A DNA stretch of 64,000 nt from assembly GCF_003953935.1 (NCBI RefSeq), contig NZ_RXLQ01000002.1:434001-498000 (forward strand), read 5' to 3'. Every line of letters starts with the position of its first letter. The stretch's first letter is position 1. Under the pieces are notes generated by a model. That model was given only the letters and a program-made list of their open reading frames with translations. It searched no databases and was not told where the DNA came from. A program made the translations under genes and the position numbers. Positions 1 through 43,997 of the stretch are shown in pieces. This DNA is from Massilia atriviolacea (lineage in GTDB: Bacteria > Pseudomonadota > Gammaproteobacteria > Burkholderiales > Burkholderiaceae_D).

Positions 1-3000
1 AGGTGCTCGGACCCAAGGTGGCCGGCACCGTCCATCTGGACCAGGCCACGCGCGACCTGGACCTGGACTTTTTGGCGCTGTTCTCGTCGCTGACGGCGTC
101 CGTGGGCAACCTGGGACAGGCCGATTACGCGGCGGCCAACGGCTTCCTGAACGAATTCGCTGTCAGCCGGGGCAACGGCAGGACCGTCGCCATCGGCTGG
201 CCGCTGTGGGAAGACGGCGGCATGCAGGTCGACGCCGCGGCGCGCGACCAGCTGCACGAGGCGACCGGCATCCATCCGATGCGGTCAAGGACCGGCATGC
301 GCATGTTCTACCGCAGCCTCGCGCTCGGCGTGGGGCACACGCTGGTCATGGAAGGGAACCTGAACGCCATGCAGCGGGCGCTCGGCGTCGGCGCCGCGCT
401 GCACGTGGCCGCGCCGGCAGCGCCGGCCGTGCCGTCCGATGGCCTGGCGCAGCAATGCGAAGCCTTCCTGTGCACGCAACTGGCAGGTTTGCTCAAGCTG
501 GCGGCCGACATGGTCGACCCGCGCGCGCCGCTGGGCGACTACGGCATCGATTCGATCCTCGCACTGGACCTGACGCGCGTGCTGGAGAACAGCTTCGGCG
601 CGCTGCCGAAAACCCTGTTCTTCGAATACCTGAACATCCGCGAACTGGCCGGCTACTTCGCCGCATCGCACGGCGCGACCCTGGCCGCGCTGTTCTCGGG
701 CGCGGCCAAGGCGCCGCTGAGCGCGCCGACCGGACAGGAGCCGACATCGAGCATCCGCAGCCGCCGCCGCGCCGAGGACAGGGCGCCGCAGCCGGCGCTG
801 CCCGACACCGATGCCATCGCAATCGTGGGCCTGAGCGGCCGCTACCCGGAAGCGCGCGACCTGGACGCCTTCTGGGACAATCTGCGCGACGGCAAGGACT
901 GCATCGTCGAAGTGCCGGGCAATCGCTGGGACTGGCGCGAATACTACACCGACGACCGCACCAAAAAGGGTCACCATTTCAGCAAATGGGGCGGCTTCAT
1001 CGACGGCGTGGACGAATTCGACGCGCGCTTCTTCAATATCTCGCCGCTCGAAGCGGAAACCATCGATCCGCAGGAACGCCTGTTCCTGGAACACGCGTGG
1101 ATGGCAATCGAAGACGCCGGCTACACCCGCGCTTCGCTGCAAAGCCCGAACGGCAGCGACTTGCCGGGGCAGGTCGGCGTGTACGCCGGCGTGATGTACG
1201 GCGAATACCAGCTGCTGGGGGCCGAGGCTAGCATGCAGGGCAAGCGCATGGGCATGGCCAGCAACGTGGCGAGCATCGCCAACCGCGTGTCGTACGCGCT
1301 GAACCTGCACGGCCCGAGCATGGCGGTCGATACGATGTGCTCTTCGTCGCTGACGGCGATCCACCTCGCGTGCCAGGACCTCAAGCTTGGCCGCACGCCG
1401 GTGGGCATTGCCGGTGGCGTGAACGTGACGATCCACCCGAACAAATACCTGATGCTCAGTTCCGGCCAGTTCATCTCCGGCGACGGCCATTGCCAGAGCT
1501 TCGGCGAGGGCGGCGACGGGTATATTCCGGGCGAAGGCGTTGGCGTGGTGGTCCTCAAGCGGCTGGCGGACGCTCAGCGCGACGGCAATCATATCCATGG
1601 CGTCATCCGCGCCAGTGCGTTGAGCCATGGCGGCCGCACCAACGGCTACACCGTGCCCAATCCGCAGGCGCAGGCCAGCGCGATCCGCCAGGCGCTGGCG
1701 CAGGCCGGGGTCGAGCCGCGCCACATCAGCTATATCGAGGCGCACGGCACCGGCACCAAACTGGGCGACCCGATCGAGATCGCCGCCCTCAGCCGCGTGT
1801 TCCAGGAGAGTACCGAGGACACGGGCTTCTGCCTGATCGGCTCCGCCAAATCGAACATCGGCCATTGCGAGGCTGCCGCCGGCATCGCCGGACTGACCAA
1901 GGTCCTGCTGCAGATGAAGCACCGGCAGATCGTGCCGTCGCTGCATTCGACGCGCCTTAATCCGCACATCGATTTTGCCAGCACGCCGTTCGTGGTCAAT
2001 CAGACCCTGACGGCGTGGGAGCGGCCTGTCGTGGGCGGCAGGCAGGTGGCGCGCATCGCCGGCATTTCGTCGTTCGGCGCCGGCGGCTCGAATGCGCACG
2101 TGATCGTGGAGGAGTACGTGCCGGCCGCGGTGGCAGCGCAACCGGCTGCGATGATGATTTTCCCGCTGTCCGCGCGCAGCACCGACCAACTGCGCGAGAA
2201 GGCGCGCGACCTGCTGGCCTTCATGCGCACCGAAGGTGGCGCGCTGCCGCTGGCGTCCATCGCCTACACCCTTGGCGCGGGACGCGAAGCGATGGCGCAG
2301 CGCTTCGCCGTCGTCGCCGATTCGGCCGCCGCCTTGGTCGAGCGCTTGCAGGCGTACGTCGACGGGCGGACCGCTGGTGCGGACCTGTCGCCGCTGGCAG
2401 CGCTGGCGGAGAGCTGGGTCAAGGGGGCGGACGTCGATTGGAGCGGCTTGCATACTACCCGGCCGCCGCTGGTCAGCCTGCCGACGTACCCGTTCGCGCG
2501 CCAGCGCCATTGGCTGGAGATCGCGCCGCGCACGGCGACCTTGCAATCGGCGCCGCATCCGCTGCTGCACGCGAACACGTCGGATTTCACGCAGCAAAGC
2601 TATACGTCCACCTTTGCGCATCGGCTGACCCGCGCAACGTGCCTGGACATGGCGCGCGCCGCGGTCGGCCTGTCGATGCCGTCGCCTTCCGCATCGATGA
2701 TGCTGGAACTGAGCGACCTTGCCTTTGCCCAGCCCGATGATGCGGGCGGCATTGCGGTCACCATCGCCTTGTTCGACAAACGCGGCGATCAGGTGGCGTT
2801 CGAAATCTATCGTGGTGAGGTCGTTTACTGCCAGGGCCGCGCGGCGTGGCGCGCAGCGGCGGGCGTCCCAGTGCAGGCGCCAGCCCGACTGGTTCAGTTC
2901 AGCGTCGACAATCCGCTGCCGGAAAAGCCGCAGCGCAGCATTGCCTTGCGCGCGCCGGACGCGGTACCGGCCGACGCCTATCGCCATGTCAGCAAACCGC

Positions 3001-6000
3001 GCATTTCGCTGTCCGGAACCGTATTCGATGCGCCGGCGCCGGCAACGTCCGCATCGCCGGTCGGCCTGTTCGACCTTGGCGACGGCATTTTCACGATCCG
3101 GATCGCCGATGCCAGCCTCTCGCCGGCGCTGATCGGCGAACTGCTGCGCGCCATGCGCGCGGTCGCCGATGCACCGGCGGCAAAAGCGCTGACCATCGAA
3201 GGCGGCGCCCGCGCTTTCCTCACCGGCGGCCTGGCGCAACACCGGCAGGCAGTCGAAGCGGGCTTGTACAAGGCCGTCGCCGAATTCCCGTACCCCGTCA
3301 TTGCAGTCGCCCAGGGCGATGCCACGGGCGCCGGCTTCCTGCTGGCCGCCGTGTGCGACTTCGTGGTGTGCAGCGAATCGGCGCGGTACGCCTTTGCCCA
3401 GCCGGCCGATGGCCTGTATCCATCGGCTGCCGAGGACCTGCTGGCCGAACGCTACGGCCGGGTGCAGGCGAACGACTTCCTGTACCTGAGCGCTGGCGCC
3501 ACCGGCGCGGAGCTCAAAGCCAAGGGCTGGACCTGCCCGATTGTCGCGGCCGATGCCGTTGACGGCGCGGCGCGGGCATTGGCAGCGGAACTGGCGACCA
3601 AGTCGCAAACCGCACTGCGCCTGCTGAAACAGCACCTTGCGCGCGCGATTACCGAGGCCGTCCACGCGCTTCCCGCTGTCGCCGATGCCTGGTTTGCGCC
3701 AGTCACCGCAAAAAATGCGCAACCCCAAGCGGCGTACGACGGCCTGCATCTTGCATTGCATGGCGACCGCGTTCTGATTGTGACAATCCGCAGCGCCGAT
3801 GGCCTGACGGACAGCCTGGCCAAGGTTCTGCAAACGCGCGCTTGCCGCTGCGTGGTGCTGACCAGCGAACTGCCGCAATTCCTTCCGGCTGCGGACGAGG
3901 ACAACATCAGGGCCATCATGCTGGACGCCGGCGTGCCGGTGGTCGCCGCCCTGACTGGCGACGCCAGCGGCGCCGGCTGGCTGCTTGCCCACTACAGCGA
4001 CGCGTGCGTGTACAGCGAGCAGGGACGCTATGCGGGTCCGCTGCAAGATCCCCATTTGCCTGCGTTGGCCTCGCTGCGCTTCGGCGACGACGCCGCAAAA
4101 CAGTTCCTGATGGCCGGCGCCATGGCGTCGGGCGCCGAATTGCGGACCCAGTTCGGTATGCCTTACGTCGTGCCGGCCGGCCGGGTACTTGCCACGGCCC
4201 TGAAGATCGCCGAGGCGGTATCGGCATTCCCGACGGCCGTTCTCGGCGCCTGGAAGAAGCGCAGCGCCGGCTTCCTCCAGGCGGCAAACCCGCTTGACCT
4301 CACCGAAAAGCATGCGACCAGGCCCGCGACGGCGCTCAGGCTCGCATCGGCAGTGATTTCGGCCACCGCCCATCCGGACGGCGTGCTGGAAGTGCGCATG
4401 GCGGACCGCGATGCGAAGAACATGTTCTCGGATGCCTTTTCGAACGGCTTGCGTGAAGTGTTTGCGCACGTCGAAGCCAGTGGCGCCTACAAGGTCCTGC
4501 TGTTGACCGGCTACGACAACTACTTCTCGTCAGGCGGCACGCAGGACACGCTGCTGGCGATCCACGAGGGCCGCGCCAGATTTACCGACAACCTGGTGTT
4601 CCAGCTTCCCTTGCTGTGCAGCGTGCCGGTGGTCGCCGCGATGCAGGGCCACGGCATCGGCGCCGGCTGGGCGATGGGCATGTACGCCGACTTCACCCTG
4701 TTCAGCGACGAAAGCCGTTACGTCAGTCCTTACATGGGCTATGGCTTTACGCCTGGCGCAGGATCGACGCAGATGTTCCCGGCCAAAATCGGCCACGACC
4801 TGGCCCGCGAAACCTTGCTGACCGCACGCGAATTTGCCGGTGGAGAGCTCAAGGAACGCGGCATGCGCCATTCGGCGCTCGCGCGCGAGCAGGTCCTGCC
4901 TGCCGCCCTGGCGATGGCGCGCCGCATCGCGCAAAGTCCGCGTGCGCTGCTGGTGGCGCTCAAACGCCACTGGTCCGCAGCGCAGCAAGTCAGCCTGGCC
5001 GATACCCTGGCGCGCGAACTGGCGATGCACGAACTGACGTTTGTGGGCCAGGCGGACACCTTGGCACGCATCCAGAGCCGCTTCGGCAGCGACACGCCGG
5101 TACAGCGTAGCGCCGTCGCCGCGCCCGCCGGTGCGGTGGACCTTGCCGCCGTCAGCGCCAGTCTCAAGGCCATGCTGGCGCACGAACTGCGCATGCAGGA
5201 ACACGAGATAGCGCAGGACGAGCAGTTCGTCGACCTGGGCCTCGATTCGATCACCGGCGTCACATGGATCCGCAGGATCAACGACACCTACGGCACCGCG
5301 ATCGAGGCGATCAAGGTGTACAGCTATCCGACGCTGGCCGCGCTGAGCGCCTTCGTGGCCGAGGAAGCCGGCCTTGCGGGCGCCGTCGTGGAGGCTCCGG
5401 AGCCGGTCGCCGTCACGCTGACATCATGGCGCCAGCCAGGACTTGCAAAGGCGGCCGAGCTGCCGCCGGTTCGGGCCACGCAGGCCATCGCCATCATCGG
5501 CATGGCCGGCCAGTTCGCCAAGTCGAACAACCTGGATGAGTACTGGCAGAATATCGCGCAGGGCAGGGACTGCATCGACGAGATTCCGAAGCACCGCTAC
5601 GACATCGACCTGTACTTCCAGGCCGGCGACGCCGCACCCGGCAAGACCTATAGCCGCTGGATGGGCGCACTCGACGACGTCGACCTGTTCGACGCGGCCT
5701 TCTTCAACATCTCGCCGCGCGAAGCGAAAAGCATGGACCCGCAGCAGCGGCTGTTCCTGCAAACCTGCTGGCACAGCATCGAGCATGCGGGCTACAACCC
5801 GAAATCGCTCGCCGGCAGCAAGTGCGGCGTATTCGCCGGCTGCTACGCGGGCGACTACCATCAGCTGTCGACCCGCGAACGACTTAGCGGCCAGGGATTC
5901 ACCGGGGCGTCGCCGTCGATCCTCCCCGCGCGGATCTCCTACCTGCTGGACCTGCACGGGCCGAGCATACCGATCGACAGCGCCTGCTCGTCGTCGCTGG

Positions 6001-9000
6001 TCGCCGTTGCCATGGCCTGCGACAGCCTGGTAGCGGGCGCCAGCGACATGGCGCTGGCCGGTGGCGTGAACGTCATGGCCGGGCCGTCCATGCAGATCAT
6101 GACGTCCCAGGTCGGCATGCTCTCGCCGCAGGGGCGCTGCTTCACCTTCGACGAACGCGCCAACGGCATCGCCAACGGCGAAGGCGTCGGCGTGGTCATG
6201 CTCAAGCGCCTGGCCGATGCCCAGCGCGATGGCGACTGCGTCTACGGCGTCATCGAGGGCTGGGGCGTCAACCAGGATGGCAAGACCAACGGCATCACCG
6301 CGCCCAATGCCGATTCGCAAACGCGCCTGCAAAACGATGTCTACACCCGGTTCGGCATCGATCCGGCCGGCATTGGACTGATCGAAGCGCACGGCACCGG
6401 CACGCCGCTGGGCGATCCGATCGAAGTGGCGGGGCTCAAGGCGTCGTTCGCCAGATTCACCACCAACAAGGACTACTGCGCACTGGGCTCGGTGAAGAGC
6501 AACGTCGGCCACTGCCTGACTGCGGCCGGGGTGTCGGGACTGCTCAAGGTGCTGCTCGCGCTCAAGCACGAACAGCTGCCGCCGACGATCAATTTCAGCA
6601 GATTGAACAAGCATATCTCGCTCAAGGATTCGCCGTTCTTCGTCAACGACCAACTGCGAGAATGGAAGCGCAACGGCAGCGAACCACGGCGCGCCGCGAT
6701 CAACTCGTTCGGCTTCAGCGGCACCAACGCGCACGTGGTCGTTGCGCAGTACGTGGCCGCACCCGCTGGCGCCGCGACCGGGGCCCCGGTCATCGTGCCG
6801 CTGTCGGCGCGCACGCCGGAGCAGTTGCAGCGCAAGGCGGCCGAGCTGCTGGCGTTCATCCGCGCCGAGGGCGGCGCCAGGATCGATCTCGCCAGCCTCG
6901 CATACACCCTGCAAACCGGGCGTGAAGAAGGTAACGAACGCGCCGCTGTCGTCGTGGCGACCGTCGCCGAGCTGGAAAAGGCGCTCGCCGCGTTCGATGG
7001 CGCGCAGGTCTATCGCGGCCAGGTTAGCGGCAGCAAGGACGCGCTGGCGGCGATGAGTGCGGACAGCGACTTCCAGGCCATGATCGGCAAGTGGATCGCC
7101 AGGAGAGAATTGCCACGCCTGGCGGAACTCTGGGTCAAGGGCATGGCGCTCGACTGGACCGGCTTTTACCAGAACCCGCCACGGCGCATGGGATTGCCGG
7201 GCTATCCCTTCGCCAAAGAGCGCTACTGGATCGATGCGGTGGATGAGGCGCCTGTCGCGGCCCCTGTCGTCGCGCTGCCGGTGCCCGTCGCTCCGGTGCG
7301 CGAGGCATCCGTGCCGGCCGAGCAGGTGCGCCAGCAGCTCAAGGCAAGTCTAGCGGAAGCCTTGTTCATGATTCCATCCGACGTGGATGTGGGCAAGTCG
7401 TTCACCGACCTGGGGCTCGATTCGATCATCGGCGTCGAATGGATGAAGGCGGTGAACAGGCAGTTCGGCACGGCGTTATCGGCGACCCGCGTCTACGATT
7501 ATCCGAGCGTGAGCGAACTGGCCGATTTTATCCGGACGCAGATCGGCGTGGCCGAGCCGGCGCCAGCTGCGCCGGTCCCGCGCGACGGCCTTCGGCAGCA
7601 ACTGAAAATCAGCCTCGCGGAAGCGTTGTTCATGCAGCCGTCCGATATCGACATCGACAAGTCGTTCACGGAACTCGGTCTCGATTCGATCATCGGCGTG
7701 GAGTGGGTCAAGAACATCAACAGACAGCACGGCACCAGCATCGGTGCCACCCGCGTCTACGATTACCCGACCGTCAGGGAGCTGGCGGCGTTCCTCGGCG
7801 GCGAAATGAGCGTCGCCGCCCCGGTGGCGCCGGTCCCCGCGGTCGTGGCGCCGCCGGCTCGCGTTAGTGAAGCGGCTACAATCCGCTTCGAACCGAAGTT
7901 CGCCAGGCGGTTCAAGGACCTGTACTTCCACTGCGGCGATGGCGAGGGCGATATCGACGCCGATGGCGAGTTCGCCGTGCGCCTGGCAATCGACCCGGCG
8001 ACCAATGTCTCGCTCAAGGAGCACGTGGTGTTCGGCGCGCACCTGCTGCCGACGGACGCCTATCTTGAACTCGTCCTGGGCGCCTGCAAGACGTATTTCG
8101 CCTGCACCGGCGTCGCGCTGAAGAACCTCGTCATCGTCAATCCGATGGTCGGCGCGCAGGGCCGGAAGAACCACATCAAGGTCGTGTTCAGGCGCGCCGG
8201 TGCCGAGTTGCAGTTCTTCGTCAAGTCGAGCGCCTCGCCCGACTTCAGCAACGACAAGCTGCACATGCAGGGTTTTATCGCGACCACGGCCGCACCTGCG
8301 GCCGGCCGCCTCCACGATGGATTTGCGGTCCTGAAGACACTCGATCACGGGGACATCGCCACCAATGCCGGGACTTACTACGCGCCGCTGCAATCGCTGC
8401 GCTTCGGCGAGTCGGCCGCGCTGGGGATAATCAAGGTCGCCCGGCACGATTTTGTCTTTACCGCCAATCCCTTCGCCTTGTACGGCGCCCTGTGCACCGT
8501 CATCAACTACGGTGCGCACCTTGCCGCCCAACGCTTCGGCGCCAGCGACGACCAGTTCCTGCCATACAGGATCGGCCGGATGGCGGTGCACGGCGAGCTC
8601 GATGGCGTCGACTACCGCTGCTATGCGCAGGTGCGCAGCATCGAACACGATGCCATCGAGTTTGACGTGGAGATGGTCGACCGCGCCGGCAAGGTCGTCG
8701 TCGTCATCGACGCCATCAGCCTGCGCCGCGTTGCGCGCAAGGCGATCGAACAGCAGACAACCGTATCGCCATTACCGGCAGTCGTCGGCACCGCCGAGGA
8801 GGGCGTCGCCATCATCGGCATGTCGTGCCGCTATCCGATGAGCGAGAGCGTCGATGCGCTGTGGGAGAACCTCAAATCCGGTACGCATTGCGTGACCGAA
8901 GTGCCCGAGGACCGCTGGAGCGCCTGGCCGGACTGGTACGACCCGGATCCGCGCCATCCGCACACCTCGTACTCCAGGTGGGGCGGCTTCCTGGATAACA

Positions 9001-11573
9001 TCGACAGCTTCGATTCGCTGTTCTTCGGCATCTCGCCGGCAGAGGCGGAACTGATCGATCCGCAGCAGCGCATTTTCCTGGAAGAGTGCTGGAAGACGAT
9101 CGAAAGCGCGGGCTACGCGCCGGGTGCATTGTCGAACCAGGCGTGCGGCGTGTATGTGGGCTGCTCCAGCGGCGACTACGCAAGGGTGCTGGCCGACGAC
9201 GGCCAGGATACGGCCGGCGCCGCGTTCATGGGCACCTCGAACGCGATTCTGGCCGCGCGCATTTCGTATCACCTCAACCTGAAGGGGCCGGCCCTGGCGC
9301 TCGACACGGCCTGTTCCTCGTCGCTGGTGGCGGTGCACCTGGCATGCGCCGCTATCCGCAGCGGCGAAACGCGGCTTGCACTGGCGGGCGGCATCAACGT
9401 GCTGGCCACGCCGCTCGGCCACATCCTCACTTCGCAAGTGGGCATGCCATCGCGCGACGGCCGCTGCGCCGCCTTCGACGCCTCGGCCAACGGCATCGTG
9501 TTCTCGGAAGGTTGCGGGGTCGTGCTGCTCAAGGCATTGTCGGAAGCGCAGCGCGACAACGACCAGATCCTCGGCGTGATCCGGGGTTCCGGCATCAACC
9601 AGGATGGCAAGACCAACGGCATCACCGCGCCGAGCTCGCGCGCCCAGGAACAACTGCTGCGCCAGATCTACAGCAGGTTTGCCATCGATCCGAAGCGCAT
9701 CGGCTACGTCGAGGCGCACGGCACCGCCACGGCGCTGGGCGATCCGATCGAAGTCAATGCGCTGGCGTCGGTATTCGGCAAGCCGGCGGACGATGCGCGC
9801 CACTGCGCACTGGGCTCGGTGAAGAGCAATATCGGCCACGCCGGCTTTGCCGCTGGCGTGGCGGGTATCGTCAAGGTCCTGCTGTGCATCAAGCACCGCA
9901 AGCTGGTGCCCTCGCTTCACTACAGCCAGCCGAATCCGCACATCGAATTCGACAGGTCGCCGTTCTTTGTCAACACCGCGTATCGCGACTGGATCAGCGA
10001 TGCCCCGCGCATGGCGACGGTCAGTTCCTTCGGCTTCAGCGGCACCAACGCGCACGTGGTGATCGAGGAGCATATGGCATCGTCGCCATCGGCCCATCGC
10101 GCGCACACGCCGGAAGGCAAGGTGCTGGTGCCGCTGTCGGCCAAGGCGGAAGAACAATTGCAGCAAAAAGTGCGCGACCTGCTGGCATTCATCAGCCGTC
10201 AGGAACACGCGCTCGACCTGGCCAGCCTGGCCTACACCCTGCAAGCCGGCCGCGACGACATGGATCACCGCCTGGTCCTGGCGGTCGACTCGGTTGTGCA
10301 ACTGGCCGCGAAACTCCAGGCGGTCCTGGACGGCGAACGCGATCCCGACGTGGCTCGCGGCCAGGCATCGAAGGGCGACGACACCCTGTCCGCCTTCGCC
10401 GCCGATCCGGAAATGCGCGCCGTGATCGAGAGCTGGGTCGCGCGCAAGAACCTGCCCAAGGTCGCCGATCTGTGGGTCAAGGGCTTTGCGCTGGACTGGA
10501 ACAAGCTGCATGCCGGCGCCACGCCACGCCGCATGACCCTGCCGACCTATCCCTTCGCCAGGGAGCGCTGCTGGGTCGACGGAACAGGTTCGCGCAAGAG
10601 CGCCGCACCACGCGGCGCGGTGGCGGTGCTGCATCCGCTCCTGCACCGCAATACCTCGGACCTGAACCAGCAAAGTTACACCAGCACGTTCGGCGGCGAC
10701 GAATTCTTCCTCGCCGATCACCGGGTGGGCGGTGAGCCGGTGCTGCCGGCGGTGGCGTACCTGGAGATGGCGCGTGCCGCATTCATGGATGCGATGCCGG
10801 CGGAGAAGGCAATCGGCCAGCTCGAACTGCGCCACGTCGCATGGGCCCAGCCGATCGTCGTTGCCGAGGCACGAAGCGTCACGATTGCCGTGTTCTCCGA
10901 CCACGGCGAGCAGGTCGCCTTTGAAGTCTACAGCGAGAGCGCTGACGAGGAAGTGCTGCATTGCCAGGGCAGCTACGCGATGGGCGTGCAAAGTCCGCCG
11001 CAGGCGCTCGACCTGGAGCGCTTGCGGGCACGGATGACAGGCGCCAGTGCGCCGGCGACATCGCTGTATCCGGCCTTTGCCGGCATGGGACTTGGCTACG
11101 GAGCTGCCTTGCGCGGCATCGTGGCGGTCCATCAGGGCGACCGGGAGCTGCTGGTCGACCTGCGCTTGCCGGAAAGCGCGCGCCGCCCGGGAGATTACGT
11201 CCTTCATCCGAGCATGATGGACAGCGCCCTGCAAGGATCGATCGCCCTGATCGACACCTGCCTCAAGGCATCCGGAAAGGTCGCGCTGCCGTTCGCCCTC
11301 GAATCGCTGCGCATCGTCGCACCTTGTGTGGAGACGATGGTGGCCTGGGTGCGCTATTCGGCGGGCGGGCAGGGGGCATCGGCGGACCTGATCAAGGTCG
11401 ACATCGACCTGTGCGGCCCGGCCGGCGACATCTGCGTGCAGATGCGGGGCTTTTCCTCGCGCCCCATGGAAAGCGCCGCCGCCTTCGATGAAGCGCATTA
11501 CCAAGCGATTTTGGCTGACATTGTCAGCAACAAGATCTCCGTTGACGAAGCTGTCGAGTTAGGGAACCTATGA
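1..11573 (+). CDS. Trans-AT polyketide synthase PKS-A, 5' end cut by window edge
   Basis: Multimodular type I PKS, at least 3856 residues, counted here from the codon at base 3. Domains in order: end of a KR (Tyr42 in QADYAAANG); ACP (Ser184); KS (Cys446, His581, His621); decayed dehydratase remnant (about 850-955) with no catalytic His; three crotonase folds (about 1020-1695); ACP (Ser1749); KS (Cys1995); tandem ACPs (Ser2474, Ser2562); a dehydratase-fold domain (about 2625-2915) with His2674 but Tyr2827 where Asp is expected; KS (Cys3104, with HGTAT for HGTGT); complete DH (His3573, Asp3740); C-terminal docking helices. There is no AT domain, so malonyl units must come in trans. The ACPs at 1749, 2474 and 2562 carry Trp six residues after Ser ([20 protein letters not shown]), the known beta-branching flag. 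The stop overlaps the next start as ATGA. The product is unknown. Confidence 0.95.
3060..5090 (+). other. Triple crotonase (ECH) array inside PKS-A
   Basis: Three consecutive crotonase-fold domains lie between a dehydratase remnant and an ACP flagged for beta-branching. The first (about 3060-3675) keeps a recognisable second oxyanion loop (GDATGAGF). The second (about 3735-4305) keeps only GDASGAGW and has lost the GG of the first loop, so it looks degenerate. The third (about 4340-5085) has [19 protein letters not shown] and [10 protein letters not shown]. It closely matches the free-standing ECH2 encoded at 41762-42511, so it is probably a working 3-methylglutaconyl-ACP decarboxylase. Roles for the first two, structural or catalytic, are not predictable from sequence. 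Confidence 0.85.
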
Positions 11574-14500: not shown

Positions 14501-17500
14501 TCCAGCAAACTCAATCCGCACATCGATTTTGCCAGCACGCCGTTCGTGGTCAACCAGACGCTCAAGCCATGGCGGCAGCCGGAGGTGGATGGCCGGGTGC
14601 TGCCGCGCATCGCCGGCATTTCCTCGTTCGGCGCCGGGGGATCGAATGCGCACGTCATCATCGAGGAGTATCGCGCGCCGGCGCGGGCCGCCGTGGCGGT
14701 CGAAGGGCAGGTCGTGGTGCCGCTGTCGGCGCGCACCCAGGAGCAGTTGCAGCAGCGGGTGGCTGCGCTGCTGTCGGTGCTCGAAGGCGAGATCGACCTG
14801 CGTTCGATGGCGCATACCTTGCAGGTCGGTCGCGAGGCGATGGAAGAACGTGCAGCCTTCCTGGTCGCATCCAGCGCCGACCTGGCAGCCAAGTTAACAG
14901 CGTTCATGCGGAGCGCGGCGAGCGGGCCGGAGGTCTATCGCGGCCAGGTCAAACAGCATCGCGACGAGATCGCGCAGCTGGAAGAAGATCCGGCATTCCA
15001 GGATTCGCTCGCGCAGTGGATCGCCGACCGGGATATCGCCAGGCTGGCCGGCATGTGGGTCAAGGGCGCGCACGTCGACTGGAGCCGCCTTGCCGATCCG
15101 GCAGGCACGCCGCGCCTGATGAGCCTTCCGGCCTACCCGTTTGCAAAAGAACGCTACTGGAACCAGGCAAAGGCGCCGACTCCGGCCGCGCAGGCGGCCC
15201 CCATGCATCCGCTGGTGCACGCCAACACGTCCAGCCTCGCCGAACAGGGTTACACCTCGACCTTCACCGGGTCCGAGGACTATCTGGTGGAGGAAGCGGG
15301 GCGGAAGACGCTGCCACCGCATCTGGTGCTGGACATGATGTGCGCCGCAGTCGAACTGGCGTCACCGAAGCGGCTCGACGCCGGTGCATGGGAGGTGGGC
15401 GACGTGGTCTGGGGCGAACCTGTCGTGATCGCGGCTGGCCGACAGCTAGGCATCGCCCTGTTCGCGCGCGACGAGAATGCCGTCGACGCCGAGATCTACA
15501 ATTGCGCCGACAACGTCGTCTATTGCCAGGGAAGGGTCATCTTCGGCGCCCAGGCAGCGCCGCTCCGCCTGCCGCCGGCGGCTGGTCCGCGCGAGATCCG
15601 CTTGGGGACCGCGCCTGCCATGGCGCTGCCGCCGCTGCGCAAAAAGCCGGCGCAGATCGCACTGCAAGCCAGCGTGGCCGTTCCAGCGCAGGCGGCGACG
15701 CCGAAAGCCACCTTTGCCCTGATGGAGCTGACTGCATCATCGAACGACGCCGGCAATGTGCGCCTGTTCGACCTGGGCGAGGGCGTCTTCTCGATCGATA
15801 TCGACGCGGCGAGCGTGCGCGAGGCGATCGGTTCGCTGTCGCAAGCGTTCGAGCGCGCACGCGGCGAACCCGCGCTCAAGGTACTGCTGCTGAACCCCCG
15901 CCGCGCGCAGTTCTGGCGCGGCGACCGGGCGGCCTGCAACGAGGCCGTCGAACGCGGCCTGCCGGGCGCCGTTGCCGCATTCCCGTATCCGGTCGTGGCA
16001 GTCGTGCGCGATGGCGCCAGTGGCGCCGGCATGCTGCTGGCGGCGCTGTGCGACTTCATCGTGCGCGGCGAAGGTGGGGCATGCGGTTTCACGAACATCG
16101 GGCAGGGCATCGTTCCGAGCGCTGCGGAAGAGCGCCTGTTCCAGGAGCGGCTGGGCGCATCCGCGTCCGCTGCGTTTTTGTACCGGACCGGCCGCGAACC
16201 GGCCATCGGGATCGTGGTGCCGAAGGCGCAAGTCGATGCAAAAGCCAGGCAACTGGCTGCCGACCTGTCGCGCAAGTCGCGCCTCGCCCTCGGGCTGCTG
16301 AAGACGCACCTGGGGCGGCATATGCTGCCCCTGGCCGACGCACTCGGGATTGCGGATCCGGCCGTCGCCGGCCCGGCCGAGGGTATCGCCGTCGTCAAGC
16401 TGGGCAAGGCGTACGGCGTCGAGGAACTGATGGCGGACCTGAAGCGCGGCTTCCAGCCCGGTACGCGCGTGGCCATCGTCACCAGCGCATTGCAGGGCTA
16501 TTTGCCGAAGACCGACGACAAGACCTTCGCCGCCTTGCGGCAGCTAGTGCGCGACTGCCCGATTCCGCTCATCGCCGCGTTCGAGGGCGATGCCGAGGGC
16601 ATGGGATGGCTGTTCGGCATCAGCTGCGACATGGCGTTTTACAGACACGACGCCCGTTACATCACCGTGCCGGTAACGTGTACGCGGCGTTTCGGCCGTG
16701 TCGTGGGGCAGGAAATCGGCCTCGCGGGCGGCAGCTACTCCGGCGCCGACCTCGGTGCGCTTGCGGGCGACCCGCTGGCGCAGGCGCGCGAGCTCGCTGC
16801 GTTGTGGAGCAAGCGCTCATGGAAACCGGCGCGCAGCGTCGACGGCGCCGCGCTGCCCGATGCGGTGGCGGACGTCGCAGTCCCGCCGCCAGGCCCCGTC
16901 GCACTGCGCTCGCGCGTGGTGACGGTCACCGCGCACGCCGATGGCGTCGTGGTCGTCGGCATGCAGGACCGCGACGACAAGAACATGTTCTCCGAGGCGC
17001 TGGTTGGCGGCTTGAAGGAAGCCTTTGCCCACATCGAGCAAACGCCGGGCTACAAGGCGGTGGTGCTGACCGGGTACGACAGCTATTTCGCCACCGGCGG
17101 CACCATGGAGACGCTGCTGGCAATCCAGGACGGCCAGGCGCAGTTCACCGACGAGAAGGTGTTCCAGCTGCCCATGGACTGTTCGCTCCCCGTCATTGCC
17201 GCCATCCAGGGCCACGGCATCGGCGGCGGCTGGTCGTTCGGGATGTTTGCCGATGTGGTCATGCTCAGTGAGGAAAGCCGCTACCTGAGTCCTTACATGG
17301 GCTACGGCTTTACGCCGGGCGCCGGCTCCACCCTGATGTTCCCTGCCAAGATCGGCTACGACCTGGCGCGCGAGACGCTGCTGAGCGCGAACGAAATGTC
17401 AGGCCGCGAGTTGAAGGAACGCGGGGTACCGCTCACCGTACTGCCACGGCGCGAGGTGGTTCCGGCGGCGATAGCGCTTGCCGCGCGCATGGCGCAGCAG

Positions 17501-20500
17501 CCGCGCGCCCGCCTGGTGCAGCTCAAGCGCCTGTCGACCGAGGCGCTGCGCGCTGCGCGCGACAACAGCTACCGGCGCGAAGTCGACATGCACGAGCAGA
17601 CCTTCGTGAAGAATGCCGACACGCTCGGGCATATCCAGGCGAAGCTGGTCACCGCGAAATCGAAGCCGGTTGCAGCTTCCGTAAAAACAGCCGCCGCTTC
17701 GTCGTCCGTCATCGCCAAGCTCAAGACGATGCTCGCGCACGAACTGTTCCTGGCGCCGGAAGAAATCGACGAAGACACCCAGTTCATCGACCTTGGCCTC
17801 GATTCGATCACCGGCGTAACCTGGATCCGCAAGATCAACGCCCACTACGGAACCGACATCGAGGCGACCAAGGTATACAGCCACCCGACCTTGAAGCAAC
17901 TGAGCCAGCTCGTGGCCGGTGTCGCAGTCGAAGAAATCCGTACCACACCGCCTTCGACAGGCCCGGTCGTCGGAAAGATCAAGCAGATGCTGGCCAGGGA
18001 ACTGCATCTCGGCGCCGACGAAATCGACGAGACGACCCAGTTTATCGACATGGGCCTCGACTCGATTACCGGCGTGACCTGGGTGCGCAAGATCAATGAA
18101 CACTACGGCACCGATATCGAGGCGACCAAGGTCTACAGCCACCCGACCCTGGAACAATTCGCGCGACTCTTGCAGGATCGGCCCGCGCAGGCCGCGGCCG
18201 AAGCGCCGCCGGTGGCGCTTGCGCCGGTACGCGCAGCGCGCAGCGCGCTGGTATCGTGGCGTGGCCGCGCACGTGTGATTGCGGCGCCGGCATCGCCGGT
18301 CGTTCCGGCGCTGCCGACCGCGTCGCAGCAGATTGCGGTCATCGGCATGGCGGGGCAGTTCGCCAAGGCGAACGATCTGGACCAGTTCTGGACCAACCTT
18401 GCCGAAGGAAGGAACTGCATCGAGGAAGTGAGCGACACGCGCTGGAACCTCGGCGCGTTCTACCAGGAAGGTGCGCCAACGGCGGGCAAAACCAACAGCA
18501 AGTGGCTCGGCGCACTCGCGCAATACGATATGTTCGATCCCCTGTTCTTCAGCATCTCGCCGACCGAGGCGGAATGCATGGATCCCCAGCAGCGCCTGTT
18601 CCTGCAATCGTGCTGGCACAGCATCGAGAACGCCGGCTACAACCCGCAGTCGCTGTCCGGCAGCCAGTGCGGCGTGTTCGTCGGCTGCGGGCCGAGCGAC
18701 TACCTACAGGCCGCACCGGAGCAGCAATTGAGCGCGCAGGGCTTTACCGGCGCCGCAAGCTCGATCCTGGCGGCGCGCATTTCGTACTTTCTGAACCTGC
18801 GCGGACCGTGCGTGTCGATCGAGACCGCGTGTTCGTCGTCGCTGGTCGCCATCGCCAGCGCCTGCGACAGCCTCAACGCCGGCAACAGCGACCTGGCACT
18901 GGCGGGCGGCGTGTACGTGATGGCCGGCCCGGCGATGCACATCATGACGGCGCAGGCGGGCATGCTCTCGGTTGACGGCCGCTGCTTCAGCTTCGACCAG
19001 CGCGCCAACGGCTTCGTGCCGGGCGAGGGCGTCGGCGTGATGATGCTCAAGCGCCTGGCCGATGCCGAGCGTGACAACGACCGCATCCAGGCCGTGATCG
19101 AAGGCTGGGGCGTGAACCAGGACGGCAAGACCAATGGCATCACCGCCCCCAACGAAGAATCGCAAACCCGCCTGCTGCAATCGGTGTACCGCAAGTTCGG
19201 CATCGACCCGGCCGGCATCGGCCTGGTCGAAGCGCACGGCACCGGCACCAAGCTGGGCGATCCGATCGAGGTGGCTGGCCTGAAAGAGGCGTTCAAACCC
19301 TTCACCGACACGGCGGGCTTCTGCGCCCTCGGTTCGGTCAAGAGCAATATCGGCCACTGCCTGACGGCGGCCGGCGCGGCGGGCTTCATCAAGCTCGTTC
19401 TGGCATTGCGGCACCGCGCGCTGCCGCCGACGATCAATTTCGAGCGTCGCAACGAGCACTTCCAGCTTGATGGCAGCCCGTTCTACATCAACGACACGCT
19501 CAAACCGTGGACCGTCGCCAAGGGCGCGAAGCGCCGCGCGGCGATCAGTTCCTTCGGTTTCAGCGGCACCAATGCGCACATCGTCGTCGCCGAGCATCAG
19601 CCGGGCGTGCAGGCAAAGGCCGGCATATCGATCGTCACGCAGCATGGGGCCATGGTGCTGCCTCTGTCGGCCCGCACCGAGCAGCAGCTGCGCCAGGGCG
19701 CACGCGACCTGCTGGACTTTATCGACGCCCGCAAGGGCGATGTCGACCTGGGCGAACTGGCCTGCACCTTGCAGCTCGGCCGCGACGCGATGGGCGAGCG
19801 GCTGGGCATTCTGGCCGCGTCGGTCGAGGAACTGCGCGCCAAGCTGGCGGCCTACACGGCTGGCGCAACCGCCATCGATGGCGTGTACCAGGGCCAGGTT
19901 AAGCGCCACAAGGAAGGTCTGAAGCTGATCGTCCAGGACGACGACATGAAGGCCATGATCGTCGATAAGTGGCTGGGCCAGCGCGCCCTCGGCAAGCTGC
20001 TGGACCTGTGGGTCAAGGGACTGGACCTGGATTGGTCGATGCTGTACGGGGATGCCAAGCCGCAGCGCATGGCACTGCCGGGCTATCCGTTCGCAAAGGA
20101 GCGCTTCTGGATCGGTGCAGGCGCGCGCAATGTGGCGCAGCAGGCCAGCGCCAGCGTGCTGCACCCGCTGTTGCACAGGAATGTCTCGGTATTGAGCCAG
20201 CAGCGCTACCGTTCGAGTTTCAGCGGCGACGAGGCCTGCTTCGAACAGACCAATGACGGCGTCAGGGTGATGGCGCCTTCCGCCTTGCTGGAAATGGCTC
20301 GCCTGGCGGTGCAACACGCGAGCGGCGATCTTGACCAGGCGGGAACGATCGACATCGCTGAAGTCAGCTGGGAGACGCCGCTGCGCGTGACCGGCAAGCT
20401 CGAACTGGTGGTCGACCTGTTCGCCAACGACGACGACAGCATCGCTTTCGAGATTTACACGGCCGGCGCCCAGGATCAGGTGCATGTGCGTGGCGTTGCC

Positions 20501-38814: not shown

Positions 38815-38925
38815 CGGCTCAGATAGTCACGAAAAGTAACAACATGCGCGCCCGTCGAACGACTGCGGCGCTGTCAAATTCTCCGCGTGCCAGCTTCGGC
38901 GGCGCACGGGGCACAGGGGAAGACG

Positions 38926-39675
<750 letters not shown>

Positions 39676-39729: not shown

Positions 39730-40989
39730 GTGAGCATCGTTGGAATCGAAGCAATGAATTTGTTTGCCGGCACGGCATTTTTGGATGTCACCAAGCTGGC
39801 CGCGCACCGCCAGCTGGACATGAGCCGGTTTGAAAACCTGTTGATGAAGGAGAAAACCGTCGCCTTGCCCTACGAGGACCCGATCACCTTCGCCGTCAAC
39901 GCGGCCAAGCCGATCGTCGATGCCCTGAGCCCGGAAGAGAAGGACCGGATCGAAATGGTCATCACCTGCACCGAATCGTCGTTCGACTTCGGCAAGTCGA
40001 TGAGCACCTATTGCCACGACCTGCTGGGGCTGAACCGCAACTGCCGCCTGTTCGAACTGAAAAACGCGTGCTACTCGGGCGTGGCCGGCTTGCAGATGGC
40101 CATCAACTTCGTGCTCTCGCAGACCTCGCCCGGCGGCAAGGTGCTGGTCATCGCCACCGACGTGTCGCGCTTCATGGTGGAAGAGGGCGGCGACGCGCTC
40201 TCGGCCGACTGGTCGTTCGCCGAGCCGAGCGGCGGTTCGGGCGCGGTGGCGATGCTGGTCAGCGACCGCCCGCACGTGTTCCAGATCGATGTGGGCGCCA
40301 ACGGCTACTACGGCTTCGAAGTCATGGATACCTGCCGTCCGTCGGCCGACACCGATGCCGGCGACACCGACCTGTCCCTGCTGTCCTACCTCAATTGCTG
40401 CGAGAACGCTTACCTGGAGTATCAAAAACGGGTCGACGGCGCCCACTTCGGCGATACCTTCGGCTACCTGGCCTACCACACGCCGTTCGGCGGCATGGTC
40501 AAGGGCGCGCACCGCAATATGATGCGCAAGCTGGTCAAGGCCAAGCCGGCCGAGATCGAAATCGACTTCCAGACCCGGGTCACCCCGAGCCTGACCCACT
40601 GCCAGCGGGTCGGCAACATCATGGGCGCCACCGCCGCGCTGGCGCTGGCCAGCACCATCGACAACGGCGACTTCGACCAGCCCAAGCGGGTCGGCATCTT
40701 TTCCTACGGGTCCGGCTGCTGTTCGGAGTTCTTCAGCGGCGTGGTGCGCAAGGAAGGCCAGCAGCGCCTGCGCGAACTGAAGATCAAGGAAACGCTGGAC
40801 AAGCGCTACGAGCTGTCGATGGAGCAATACGACCGCCTGCTGGAAAAGAGCCGCGAGCTCAAATTCGGCACGCGCAACATGGTGCCGGACGCCAGCTTCA
40901 TTGCCGGGGCGCGCACCACCCTGAACCAGCCGACCCTGCTGCTCAAGCAGATCAAAGAATTTCACCGAGAATACGAATGGGTGTCCTGA
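39730..40989 (+). CDS. HMG-CoA-synthase-like enzyme for polyketide beta-branching
   Basis: 419 residues, GTG start with GGAGGA seven bases upstream. It should condense acetyl-ACP with the beta-keto group of a PKS-bound chain, the first step of beta-methyl or exomethylene formation. The expected catalytic triad is visible: Glu82 in TCTESSFD, Cys114 in KNACYSG and His250 in YHTPFGG. The length fits the PksG type. It overlaps the ECH1 gene by 13 bases, which implies coupled translation. Partners in the same operon are donor ACP, decarboxylating KS, ECH1 and ECH2. Targets are likely the Trp-flagged ACPs of PKS-A and PKS-B. Confidence 0.95.
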   Translation: MSIVGIEAMNLFAGTAFLDVTKLAAHRQLDMSRFENLLMKEKTVALPYEDPITFAVNAAKPIVDALSPEEKDRIEMVITCTESSFDFGKSMSTYCHDLLGLNRNCRLFELKNACYSGVAGLQMAINFVLSQTSPGGKVLVIATDVSRFMVEEGGDALSADWSFAEPSGGSGAVAMLVSDRPHVFQIDVGANGYYGFEVMDTCRPSADTDAGDTDLSLLSYLNCCENAYLEYQKRVDGAHFGDTFGYLAYHTPFGGMVKGAHRNMMRKLVKAKPAEIEIDFQTRVTPSLTHCQRVGNIMGATAALALASTIDNGDFDQPKRVGIFSYGSGCCSEFFSGVVRKEGQQRLRELKIKETLDKRYELSMEQYDRLLEKSRELKFGTRNMVPDASFIAGARTTLNQPTLLLKQIKEFHREYEWVS

Positions 40990-41762
40990 CCAGCAGCTAC
41001 GACACGCTGCGCGTGCGCTTCGACGATGACATCTGCTTCGTGCAGATGCATCGGCCCGACTCCGGCAACGCGATCGACAATCGCTTGATCGACGAGCTGG
41101 GCCACGCGCTGGGCGCCTGCGTCGGCCACGCCAAGGTGGTGGTGCTGGAAGGCTTGCCGGAAGCGTTCTGTTCCGGCGCTGACTTCAAGCAAATCCAGAC
41201 CCGCTTCGACGCCGATGGCGGCCAGGGCGGGCAAGACCCGGGGCCGCTGTACGACCTGTGGCACCAGCTCGCCTGTGGCCCGTTCGTGACGGTGGCCCAC
41301 GTGCGCGGGCGTGCCAACGCCGGCGGCATCGGCTTCGTGGCGGCCTGCGACATCGTCCTGAGCGACAGCAAGGCCGTGTACAGCCTGTCCGAACTGCTGT
41401 TCGGGCTGATGCCGGCCTGCGTGCTGCCCTTCCTGATTCGCCGGGTCGGTTTTGCCAAGGCCAACTACATGACCCTGATGACGCAGCCGGTGTCGGCCGC
41501 CCAGGCGATGGAATGGGGCCTGGTCGACGCCTGCGACGACAACAGCGACAACCTGGTGCGCAAGCATCTGTTACGCCTGCGCCGGCTCGGCAAGGATGGC
41601 ATTGCGCGCTACAAGCGCTATTGCGCCGGGCTGGACGATACGCTGGCGGCCGCCAGGCCGAAGGCGCTGGCCGCCAACCTGGACGTGTTCACCGACCCGG
41701 GCAACCTGCACGCCATCGCGCGTTATGTGCGGACCGGCAAATTTCCGTGGGAGGCAGATTGA
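40977..41762 (+). CDS. Enoyl-CoA hydratase-like ECH1 (HMG-ACP dehydratase)
   Basis: 261 residues, crotonase fold with FCSGADFKQI (first oxyanion loop) and GRANAGGIGF (second). By family and place it is the PksH-type enzyme that dehydrates HMG-ACP to 3-methylglutaconyl-ACP. ATG 40977 lies inside the end of the HMG-synthase gene and is the first start before recognisable crotonase sequence. The open frame runs far upstream, but that part is a shadow. The stop and the next ATG share a base (TGATG), so the genes are coupled. Confidence 0.92.
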   Translation: MGVLTSSYDTLRVRFDDDICFVQMHRPDSGNAIDNRLIDELGHALGACVGHAKVVVLEGLPEAFCSGADFKQIQTRFDADGGQGGQDPGPLYDLWHQLACGPFVTVAHVRGRANAGGIGFVAACDIVLSDSKAVYSLSELLFGLMPACVLPFLIRRVGFAKANYMTLMTQPVSAAQAMEWGLVDACDDNSDNLVRKHLLRLRRLGKDGIARYKRYCAGLDDTLAAARPKALAANLDVFTDPGNLHAIARYVRTGKFPWEAD

Positions 41763-42511
41763 TGCTCGAACCCATCGTCGCGGTCAGGGAGCTTGAGGCG
41801 GGCATCGTCCAGGTCACCATGCAGGACCGGGTCAACAAGAACACCTTCACCGACGGGCTGATCGCCGGCCTGACCACGGCCTTCGCCGGCATCGGCGCGC
41901 GCCAGGACTGCAAGGTGGTCATCCTGACCGGCTACGACAGCTATTTTTCCAGCGGCGGCACCCAGGAAGGCTTGCGCGACCTGTCCGAAGGCAAGATGAA
42001 GTTCACCGACAAGGACCTGTACAGCCTGGCGCTGAATTGCCCGATTCCCGTGATCGCGGCAATGCAGGGCCACGGCATCGGCGGCGGCTTCGTGATGGGC
42101 ATGTTCGCCGACTTCGTGATCCTCGCGCGCGAAAGCGTGTACACGGCCAACTTCATGAAATACGGCTTTACGCCCGGCATGGGCTCGACCTTCATCCTGC
42201 CGCAAAAGCTGGGCATCAGCCTGGCCGGCGAAATGATGCTGACCGCCGCCACCTACCGTGGCGAGGAACTGCAAAAGCGCGGCGTGCCGTTTCCGGTGGT
42301 AGCGCGCGACAAGGTGCTGGAGCAGGCGCTGGAACTGGCGCGCTCCCTGGCCGAGAAGCCCAGGTTTTCGCTGGTGACCTTGAAAGACCATCTGGTGCTG
42401 CCGCTGCGAAAACAGCTGGCGGCCTTTATCGAAGACGAGATCGCCATGCACGCGCTGACCTTTCATCAGCCCGAAGTCAGGCAGCGCATCGACGCATTTT
42501 TCGGCAAGTAG
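41762..42511 (+). CDS. Enoyl-CoA hydratase-like ECH2 (methylglutaconyl-ACP decarboxylase)
   Basis: 249 residues, crotonase fold of the PksI type: GYDSYFSSGG, MQGHGIGGG and YGFTPGMGST. It should decarboxylate 3-methylglutaconyl-ACP to the beta-methyl enoyl thioester, completing the branch. It resembles the third crotonase domain of each in-line array in PKS-A and PKS-B, so the cluster carries this activity both free and fused. The ATG overlaps the ECH1 stop. The open frame upstream of this ATG is antisense or out-of-frame noise within ECH1. Confidence 0.92.
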   Translation: MLEPIVAVRELEAGIVQVTMQDRVNKNTFTDGLIAGLTTAFAGIGARQDCKVVILTGYDSYFSSGGTQEGLRDLSEGKMKFTDKDLYSLALNCPIPVIAAMQGHGIGGGFVMGMFADFVILARESVYTANFMKYGFTPGMGSTFILPQKLGISLAGEMMLTAATYRGEELQKRGVPFPVVARDKVLEQALELARSLAEKPRFSLVTLKDHLVLPLRKQLAAFIEDEIAMHALTFHQPEVRQRIDAFFGK

Positions 42512-42532
42512 TTCATTCAACAGGAGAGTATT

Positions 42533-42772
42533 GTGAGCAAAGACCGCATTTACGAGATCATCGTCGGCCATACGCGCGAGGTGGTGCCCAGCCTGGACGG
42601 CCACCCGTTCCAGCAGACCGATTCGCTCAAGGCGCTGGGCGCCAATTCGATCGACCGCGCCGACATCATCATGATGACGCTGGAATCGCTGGAGCTCGAC
42701 ATTCCCCTGATGCTGCTCGCAAAGGCGGACAACATCGGCGATCTGGCGCGCATGATCCATGAAAAGTCCTAG
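42533..42772 (+). CDS. Free-standing donor acyl carrier protein
   Basis: 79 residues, GTG start after CAGGAGAG. The carrier motif is GANSIDRAD with the phosphopantetheine Ser at 39. In beta-branching cassettes this stand-alone ACP is loaded with malonyl, decarboxylated to acetyl by the partner KS and used by the HMG synthase. The last 14 bases overlap the KS gene. It lacks the Trp flag found on acceptor ACPs, as expected for the donor. Confidence 0.92.
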   Translation: MSKDRIYEIIVGHTREVVPSLDGHPFQQTDSLKALGANSIDRADIIMMTLESLELDIPLMLLAKADNIGDLARMIHEKS

Positions 42773-43997
42773 CGTTTCCGACCTGGTCGTGAGCGGCGTC
42801 GGCGTGACCTCGGCCATCGGCCAGGGGCGGGATGCCTTTCTGGCGGCGCTGATGGGCGGGCGCCACCGTTTCGACATCATGCGCAGGCCTGGGCGCCAGC
42901 GGCCCGGCAATGACGGCGCGGGCTTCATCGGCGCCGAAATCGGCGAGCTGGCCATGCCCGGCGCGATACCGCGCAGCGTGCTGCGCACCGCCTCGCTGTC
43001 GGGGCAGGTGGCGCTGGCGACCCTGCACGAGGCGTGGCTTGACGCCGCGCTGGGCGAAGTGGCGCCGGAGCGGATCGGCCTGATCGTGGGCGGCTCGAAC
43101 GTGCAGCAGCGCGAACTGACCCTGGCGCACGACAACTACCGTGGCCGCGAGCAATTCCTGCGCCCGACCTACGGCATGGCCTTCATGGACAGCGACCTGT
43201 GCGGCATGTGCACGGAGGAATTCGGGATCCGGGGTTTTGCCTACACCGTCGGCGGCGCGTCCGCCAGCGGGCAGCTGGCGGTGATCGAAGCCATGCGGGC
43301 GGTCGAGTCGGGCAGGGTGGACGTGTGCATCGCCATCGGCGCGCTGATGGATCTGTCGTACTGGGAATGCCAGGGTTTCCGCTCGCTGGGCGCGATGGGC
43401 TCGACGGCCTTCGCAAGCGAGCCGGCGCTGGCCTGCCGCCCGTTCGACCGCGACCGCGACGGCTTCATCTTCGGCGAAGCCTGCGGCGCGGTGGTGGTGG
43501 AGCGTGCCGACAGCGCGCGCCGGGTGGACCGGGCGCCGTATGCGCGCCTGGCCGGCTGGGCCATGGCGATGGACGCGCAGCGCAACCCGAATCCCTCGGT
43601 CGAGGGCGAGATGAAGGCGATCAAGGGCGCGCTCGCGGGCGCCGGCCTGTCCCCGCAGGACATCGATTACATCAACCCGCACGGCACCGGCTCGCCGCTT
43701 GGCGACATCACCGAGCTCGAAAGCATCCGCGAATGCCGCCTCGGCCACGCCTGGCTCAACGCCACCAAATCGGTGACCGGCCACGGGCTGAGCGCCGCCG
43801 GCTGCGTGGAACTGATCGCGGTCATGCTGCAAATGAAGGAAGGCCGCCTGCATCCATCCAGGAACCTGGACACGCCGATGGAAACGGCCATGAAATGGGT
43901 CGGAAAAGAAGCGCAGGCGCACACGATCGACAACGCGCTGAACCTGTCCATGGGGTTCGGCGGCGTGAATACCGCAGTGTGCCTGCAACGCTATTGA
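42759..43997 (+). CDS. Decarboxylating ketosynthase (Cys to Ser) of the beta-branching cassette
   Basis: 412 residues with a ketosynthase fold. The nucleophile position reads GGASASG, with Ser168 where a condensing KS has Cys. HGTGSPLGD and KSVTGH retain both His residues. This Ser variant is the known signature of PksF-type enzymes, which decarboxylate malonyl-ACP to acetyl-ACP rather than condense. The start overlaps the donor ACP gene, matching a tight functional pair. Confidence 0.94.
   Translation: MKSPSVSDLVVSGVGVTSAIGQGRDAFLAALMGGRHRFDIMRRPGRQRPGNDGAGFIGAEIGELAMPGAIPRSVLRTASLSGQVALATLHEAWLDAALGEVAPERIGLIVGGSNVQQRELTLAHDNYRGREQFLRPTYGMAFMDSDLCGMCTEEFGIRGFAYTVGGASASGQLAVIEAMRAVESGRVDVCIAIGALMDLSYWECQGFRSLGAMGSTAFASEPALACRPFDRDRDGFIFGEACGAVVVERADSARRVDRAPYARLAGWAMAMDAQRNPNPSVEGEMKAIKGALAGAGLSPQDIDYINPHGTGSPLGDITELESIRECRLGHAWLNATKSVTGHGLSAAGCVELIAVMLQMKEGRLHPSRNLDTPMETAMKWVGKEAQAHTIDNALNLSMGFGGVNTAVCLQRY

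Follow-up and report, generated by a model that had tools for sequence, protein, structure and literature searches.

Why should one polyketide synthase (PKS) module carry three crotonase domains in a row when only the last of them looks fit for catalysis? The question is raised by PKS-A, which is encoded in a window of 64,000 nucleotides from Massilia atriviolacea (contig NZ_RXLQ01000002.1), the window being the whole stretch of DNA that was analysed. The original prediction, made from the letters of the sequence, had placed three crotonase (ECH) domains between a decayed dehydratase (DH) and a beta-branching ACP, and had taken only the third to be a full ECH2 decarboxylase. The features of this region are as follows.

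3-11573, plus strand: PKS-A reading frame, which opens before the window start
2547..3059, plus strand: half-dehydratase DH* of the triple module, decayed (Pfam PKS_DH_N 28.3 bits, cut-off 27; HxxxGxxxxP absent)
3063..3680, plus strand: D1, first crotonase domain, catalytically degenerate (PRK07110 108 bits; boundaries from a purpose-built HMM)
3744..4268, plus strand: D2, second and most degenerate crotonase domain (PRK07110 58.6 bits; first oxyanion-hole glycines lost; boundaries from a purpose-built HMM)
4341..5090, plus strand: D3, predicted in-line ECH2 decarboxylase domain (catalytic His codon 5028-5030)
5163..5357, plus strand: acceptor ACP with Trp flag (Pfam PP-binding 57 bits; ten-residue motif at 5238)
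5451..6748, plus strand: KS 3' of the triple block, motif-based; two Trp-flag ACPs come after it, with motifs at 7413 and 7677

The order within the module is KS, half-DH without HxxxGxxxxP, D1-D2-D3, and an ACP with Trp at Ser+6, which we take to be the exact position of the flag, and both the decayed DH before the block and the branching-type ACP after it are therefore as foreseen. A Trp recognition feature in such ACPs is mentioned in the accessible text of the bongkrekic acid and lasonolide (PMC9600693) papers. Because the same block is found at 84% identity in a congener (G138), inside a contig of 7.44 Mb, an assembly artefact was ruled out.

The results of the profile searches showed that Pfam ECH_1 (262 bits, E 5e-78) and NCBIfam PRK07110 (429 bits) each match 3060-5090 in three stretches, so that three crotonase domains indeed lie within one module. 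A second array was found in the next synthase of the window, and when the six domains of both arrays were scanned singly, PRK07110, an ECH2-type model, was the top NCBIfam model for every one of them, with 108 and 52 bits for D1, 59 and 36 bits for D2, and 274 and 286 bits for D3. D1 and D2 thus match a crotonase model, while the curated PRK07110 cut-off of 215 was reached only by D3, as expected if the third domain alone is a full ECH2. The ECH1 model PRK07112 was not among the matches listed for any of the six domains (the best 25 for PKS-A D1 and for both D3 domains). Membership of the crotonase superfamily was supported by sequence matches in D1, D2 and D3 and by a fold match for D3; the matches of the fold searches fell on D3, with Foldseek rows of rmsd up to 23 A, and carry no information on how the three domains are arranged.

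The second D1-D2-D3 array, in PKS-B at 15761-17641, is 48% identical to the PKS-A triple, and a cassette of stand-alone genes, HMGS-ECH1-ECH2-KS (39730-43997), followed by two AT genes, was found further along the window.

15197..15760, plus strand: half-DH of the PKS-B triple module (Pfam PKS_DH_N 44.3 bits)
15761..16354, plus strand: D1 of the PKS-B triple (HMM boundaries, PRK07110 match)
16361..16837, plus strand: D2 of the PKS-B triple (HMM boundaries, PRK07110 match)
16904..17641, plus strand: D3 of the PKS-B triple, ECH2 type (Gln at the PksI Lys80 position)
17720..18200, plus strand: two tandem Trp-flag ACPs after the PKS-B triple (motifs at 17795 and 18053)
39730..40989, plus strand: stand-alone HMG synthase (Pfam HMG_CoA_synt_C 75 bits, cut-off 25; HMG-CoA-S_prok 240 bits, below its cut-off of 360)
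40992..41759, plus strand: stand-alone ECH1 dehydratase (PRK07112, 390 bits, cut-off 250)
41774..42505, plus strand: stand-alone ECH2 decarboxylase (PRK07110, 382 bits; best solved relative PksI, E 5e-99)
42759..43997, plus strand: stand-alone cassette ketosynthase (PRK07103, 621 bits, cut-off 445)

The window thus holds what marks HMGS-type beta-branching modules, namely trans HMGS, ECH1, ECH2 and KS together with a Trp-flag acceptor ACP. The PKS-A module at 5451-7900, which lies between the two triples, combines a KS with two Trp-flag ACPs and showed no in-line ECH; it is therefore presumably served by the stand-alone ECH2 and would probably be a third branching site. DH starts that lack a following HxxxGxxxxP were seen in three modules of the window (2547-3059, 15197-15760 and 20162-20700), and the DH before either triple is about half-sized. 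In most relatives an HPLL-type DH start, where found, lies roughly 280-400 aa before D1; in the 69 arrays for which 350 aa or more of upstream sequence was available, a search by regular expression only gave such a start in 55 and HxxxGxxxxP in 4. Elsewhere in the window we noted a metallo-beta-lactamase-fold protein (38887-39675; best NCBIfam model solanimycin SolJ, 287 bits, below its cut-off of 350), a LodA-like L-lysine epsilon-oxidase (53879-55876; Pfam LodA_N and LodA_C), a FAD-binding, tryptophan-halogenase-like protein (60043-61332, minus strand) and an 886-aa protein with a ferritin-like domain (61333-63993, minus strand; PF12902, 115 bits).

To see which of the three domains could be active, PksI numbering was transferred through an alignment to residues of the block, and residues were counted over 80 array rows. 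In D3, the His equivalent to PksI His230 (block residue 657) and both SGG glycines (block residues 492 and 493) were found in 80/80 rows. The PksI Lys80 position (block residue 507) was K in 52 rows, R in 18, Q in 7 and another residue in 3 (n=80), and it is Arg in PKS-A and Gln in PKS-B. The catalytic Lys of CurF, which we take to be residue 86, corresponds in the alignment to block residue 501; all 80 rows, and PksI too, have Ile there, and on this point D3 is therefore like the active PksI. In the accessible text on PksI, the H230A variant was impaired and K80A was as active as the wild type, and CurF is reported to require its Lys (PMC7501309). Since the His and both glycines are retained throughout and PksI does not depend on Lys80, D3 is predicted with considerable confidence to be an ECH2 decarboxylase acting in the manner of PksI.

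The first two domains are eroded, as had been proposed: both stay below the model cut-off, and their aligned rows stop short of the His-bearing helix, so that no counterpart of His230 was found in either. At the first oxyanion positions, Gly was retained by D1 in 77/80 and 38/80 rows (block residues 56 and 57) and by D2 in 6/80 and 3/80 (block residues 277 and 278), and conservation of D1 and D2 is much lower than that of D3. The original prediction had also considered an ECH1-like activity for these domains, and this was contradicted by the data, because the alignment rows of D1 and D2 offer no counterparts of Asp68 and Glu137 of ECH1 (PksH numbering), and both domains match the ECH2-type PRK07110 best; an ECH1-like D1 was accordingly ruled out. 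Counterparts of both PksH residues are present in the stand-alone ECH1 of the cluster. As a separate observation, D1 block residue 125 (3432-3434) is Glu in 55/80 rows and belongs to a loop that in relatives lies alongside the active site.

Genome contigs were scanned with the triples as query and ranked by match, and the best 80 of 171 confirmed relatives, corresponding to 78 distinct loci, were analysed with D1, D2 and D3 domain HMMs built on eight arrays. All 78 loci carried D1-D2-D3 in that order, a figure that is not a frequency, since triples served as the query and hits were ranked by match. Counting each distinct D3 once gave 83 arrays, some cut by contig ends, in seven phyla: Pseudomonadota (38), Bacteroidota (31), Acidobacteriota (8), Planctomycetota (2), Fibrobacterota (2), Myxococcota (1) and Verrucomicrobiota (1). 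One to four ACPs follow the array in 77/77 of those of the 83 with at least 200 aa downstream, and the residue at Ser+6 in these 132 ACPs is W in 103, F in 26 and L in 3. The triple is a real, recurring and ordered three-domain unit of in-line ECH2 processing. The HMM-matched length of D2 is 159 in PKS-B, 116 in one relative (L096) and about 200 in many of the other arrays.

Within the window's family, two triples per genome were found in 4 of 294 genomes, its own genome included (E up to 1e-40), and three further genomes had a single ECH2 match outside any array. In samples of a phylum and of a class, both centred on genomes picked for their triples, the phylum sample (398 genomes) gave only its own array plus one double, and the gammaproteobacterial class sample (369 genomes) gave, besides its centre, one triple-like array, one double and stand-alone copies. 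Two in-line ECH domains were found in genome G770 and in Nostoc and Ensifer plasmids, and one in Eleftheria terrae. The first domain of the doubles is nearer D2 in G770 and Ensifer and nearer D1 in Nostoc (75.7 vs 44.3 bits); the doubles of G574 and G770, which are found at the same place, very likely represent one genome. In an early-branching array (L113, genome G895) D2 is less decayed and D1 lies in another frame than D2-D3, which reflects either split genes or a frame break, and this array is a possible intermediate of the triplication.

A domain tree of 86 rows (22 of the 80 arrays, two outlying arrays and references; midpoint root) placed the 22 D1, 22 D2 and 22 D3 domains of the ordinary arrays in clades of their own, with support of 95/99, 100/99 and 99/95, respectively, and each of these clades spans phyla. 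D1 and D2 group together (91/90), D3 groups with stand-alone ECH2, PksI and CurF (87/89), and ECH1, on a long branch, joins other crotonases from the genome; several D2 rows also have long branches. The domains of two arrays, those of G895 and G770, split off close to the bases of these groups, so that the tree requires two label changes apiece for D1, D2 and D3. D1 and D2 derive from ECH2, not from ECH1, and the simplest reading of the tree would be one ancient ECH2 triplication in which the first two copies decayed and which later spread among phyla. Selection was measured by the Nei-Gojobori method on one pair, the window against the congener G138, and the dN/dS values for the two arrays were 0.15 and 0.24 for D1, 0.31 and 0.33 for D2, and 0.07 and 0.14 for D3; the half-DH gave 0.24 and 0.18, and four KS domains 0.07-0.11. 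D1 and D2 are thus under purifying selection, but not clearly more than the half-DH, and since the half-DH is constrained about as strongly, selection alone is no proof of a special role for D1 and D2.

What, then, could two catalytically degenerate ECH2 copies be retained for? The AF2 prediction of the D1-D2-D3 block from 80 rows gave a mean pLDDT of 93 and a pTM of 0.93 over 677 residues, although pTM expresses confidence in domain positions only and AF2 may follow trimers in its training set. When the half-DH was added, pTM was 0.81 and the linker was poorly predicted; within the half-DH, block pLDDT was 75-95 for residues 1-100, with one helix and long strands, and 40-61 for residues 101-170. 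This drop is as expected if the half-DH floats while the block stays rigid, and a place for the half-DH inside the rigid unit was not supported. The model thus predicts that D1, D2 and D3 of one chain form a single rigid body. The relatives of these domains are trimers: in the accessible parts of the respective papers, PksH and PksI are trimeric in crystals and in solution, the state of PksI agrees with that reported for CurF ECH2 (PMC7501309), VirD is a trimer that forms two stacked discs in the crystal of its ACP complex, and for VirE a trimer was described on the basis of SAXS and modelling (PMC10006238). Because PksI, PksH and CurF ECH2 are trimers, we propose an intramolecular pseudo-trimer in which D1 and D2 take the two places beside D3, and we lean slightly towards this threefold geometry, which we infer from the relatives. 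Of the three roles that had been suggested for D1 and D2 (scaffold, ECH1-like activity or proofreading), the scaffold is the best supported, by the predicted rigid body and the trimeric relatives.

We therefore favour, with moderate confidence, a reading of the block as an in-line decarboxylase unit in which D1 and D2 are ECH2-derived pseudo-enzymes and the three domains make up a covalent pseudo-trimer with one live site. In this reading the Trp-flag ACP would carry the beta-ketoacyl chain made by the KS of the module. The stand-alone HMG synthase would add an acetyl-derived unit, the stand-alone ECH1 would dehydrate the product of the HMG synthase, and D3 would decarboxylate the methylglutaconyl-type intermediate to leave a beta-methyl or an exo-methylene branch. 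D1 and D2 would be retained because crotonases of this kind function as trimers. A PKS module is a homodimer, and a covalent pseudo-trimer would avoid the clash of a threefold enzyme with a twofold synthase, so that two chains would bring together six crotonase domains, possibly as two discs. That a trimeric enzyme is embedded in this way in a homodimeric assembly line, with three subunits in one chain, two of them decayed, and a six-domain double disc per module dimer, has in our view about an even chance of being right. Modules with two in-line ECH domains, or with one, also exist, so not all modules of this type require a covalent trimer. As for the type of branch, the accessible text of the lasonolide paper links truncated ECH plus ECH2 mostly with exo-methylene and predicts one endo case (PMC9600693).

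This last association also bears on a different role, in which D1 and D2 form no trimer with D3 and are non-catalytic regulators that steer its exo/endo outcome or dock the Trp-flag ACP or the trans HMGS and ECH1. It draws support from the truncated ECH just upstream of ECH2 that is common with exo-beta-methylene formation (PMC9600693) and from aurantinin ECHQ, a non-decarboxylating ECH described as able to redirect the assembly line (PMC11425284), but the former source, as far as its text was accessible, predicts endo-methyl from one truncated ECH-ECH2 pair, D1 and D2 are far less conserved than D3, and the rigid-body prediction favours a structural role; both roles may coexist, and regulation by itself we hold to be unlikely. 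Alternatively, D3 might homotrimerise across three PKS molecules with D1 and D2 as mere spacers beside it, as the trimeric CurF ECH2 (cited in PMC7501309) and the single in-line ECH2 of Eleftheria terrae might suggest. The block pTM of 0.93, however, is far above the value of about 0.4 estimated for three loosely joined domains, and D1 and D2 stand beside D3 in the 83 distinct arrays counted from seven phyla, although the search favoured such arrays; this arrangement is thus quite improbable.

Two further explanations concern the decay itself. If D1 or D2 were still catalytic, for instance in an ECH1-type dehydration, the module would do more of the HMG processing, and the oxyanion glycine kept by D1 in 77/80 rows and the Glu at block residue 125 in 55/80 could be read in that sense; given the missing counterparts of PksH Asp68 and Glu137, the ECH2-type best models and the stand-alone ECH1 already present in the cluster, we consider this very improbable. 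Hardly any more credible are D1 and D2 as neutral leftovers of domain duplication. The loss of catalytic residues from both, the wide variation in HMM-matched D2 length (116 to about 200) and the decay of the neighbouring DH would all fit, but such leftovers would have to be reconciled with the separate clades of D1, D2 and D3, none of them confined to one phylum (22 sampled ordinary arrays), with dN/dS of 0.15-0.33 for D1 and D2, and with three domains in order in 78/78 loci (best 80 of 171), even though the search favoured such loci.

If the covalent pseudo-trimer is true, the triple offers a concrete structural reason for degenerate ECH partners, and would represent a general solution to the symmetry mismatch of megasynthases, in which a threefold enzyme is fitted to a twofold assembly; it would also suggest a rule for PKS engineering, namely that D1-D2-D3 be transferred as one unit. 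The idea is testable in Aquimarina sp. Aq78, since this strain is cultured and its product is known. That product's gene cluster, the cuniculene BGC, which encodes a trans-AT PKS, is reportedly that of Helfrich et al. 2019. Full D1-D2-D3 arrays were found in Aq78 and RhTr2, and two arrays in A. muelleri, where D1 is incomplete at the contig edge; one HMGS match was found in each of the three strains, 72-74% identical to the HMGS of the window, and the best three KS matches of the KS at 5451..6748 in Aq78 are 64-69% identical. The triple and the HMGS are on one contig only in RhTr2, and on separate contigs in Aq78 and A. muelleri. Two papers report the cuniculene BGC in Aquimarina sp. Aq78, one together with A. 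muelleri (PMC9323603) and the other together with RhTr2 (PMC9860996). Because strains reported with this BGC carry D1-D2-D3, in RhTr2 on the HMGS contig, the triple is probably part of the published cuniculene cluster. The window genome itself belongs to the same family as Pseudoduganella flava, and its likeness to the cuniculene strains lies in the similarity of HMGS, KS and array.

The original prediction knew of no described ECH-ECH-ECH arrangement. Neither a triple ECH array as such nor a reason for one was found in the CC-licensed PMC literature, among the matches listed. The novelty of the array is weakened, and its lack of precedent is doubtful, since the array recurs in 78 loci (best 80 of 171), including the reported cuniculene strains, and doubles with a truncated first ECH are known (PMC9600693). 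The 'tandem ECH' of NaPDoS2 is, in the accessible description, ECH plus ER in cis-AT systems.

In comparison to known systems, in-line ECH domains with degenerate partners are reported for lasonolide and several pederin-family synthases (PMC9600693, PMC6855096), in the accessible text of these sources. Among the closest known systems are the trans-AT PKS modules of lasonolide LasH and LasO, with a truncated ECHa and an in-line ECH2 (ECHb), ECH2 being last and its upstream partner degenerate, and with acceptor ACPs that carry the conserved Trp, as does the ACP of the triple; OnnB of onnamide has two in-line ECH domains, again with ECH2 last (PMC9600693, PMC6855096). The lasonolide paper proposes that the truncated partners are inactive (PMC9600693). 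Lasonolide and onnamide, however, have two ECH domains where the window has three. Aurantinin ECHQ (Art21) is like D1 and D2 in that it is derived from ECH2 and has lost its catalytic His, yet matters, but it is an ECH-TE protein with His replaced by Gln, whereas D1 and D2 lack the whole helix (PMC11425284). The D3 of the window lacks the Lys of CurF, as does PksI, and while CurF ECH2 from curacin biosynthesis and PksI from that of bacillaene are trimers of separate copies, D3 is fused to two degenerate paralogues.
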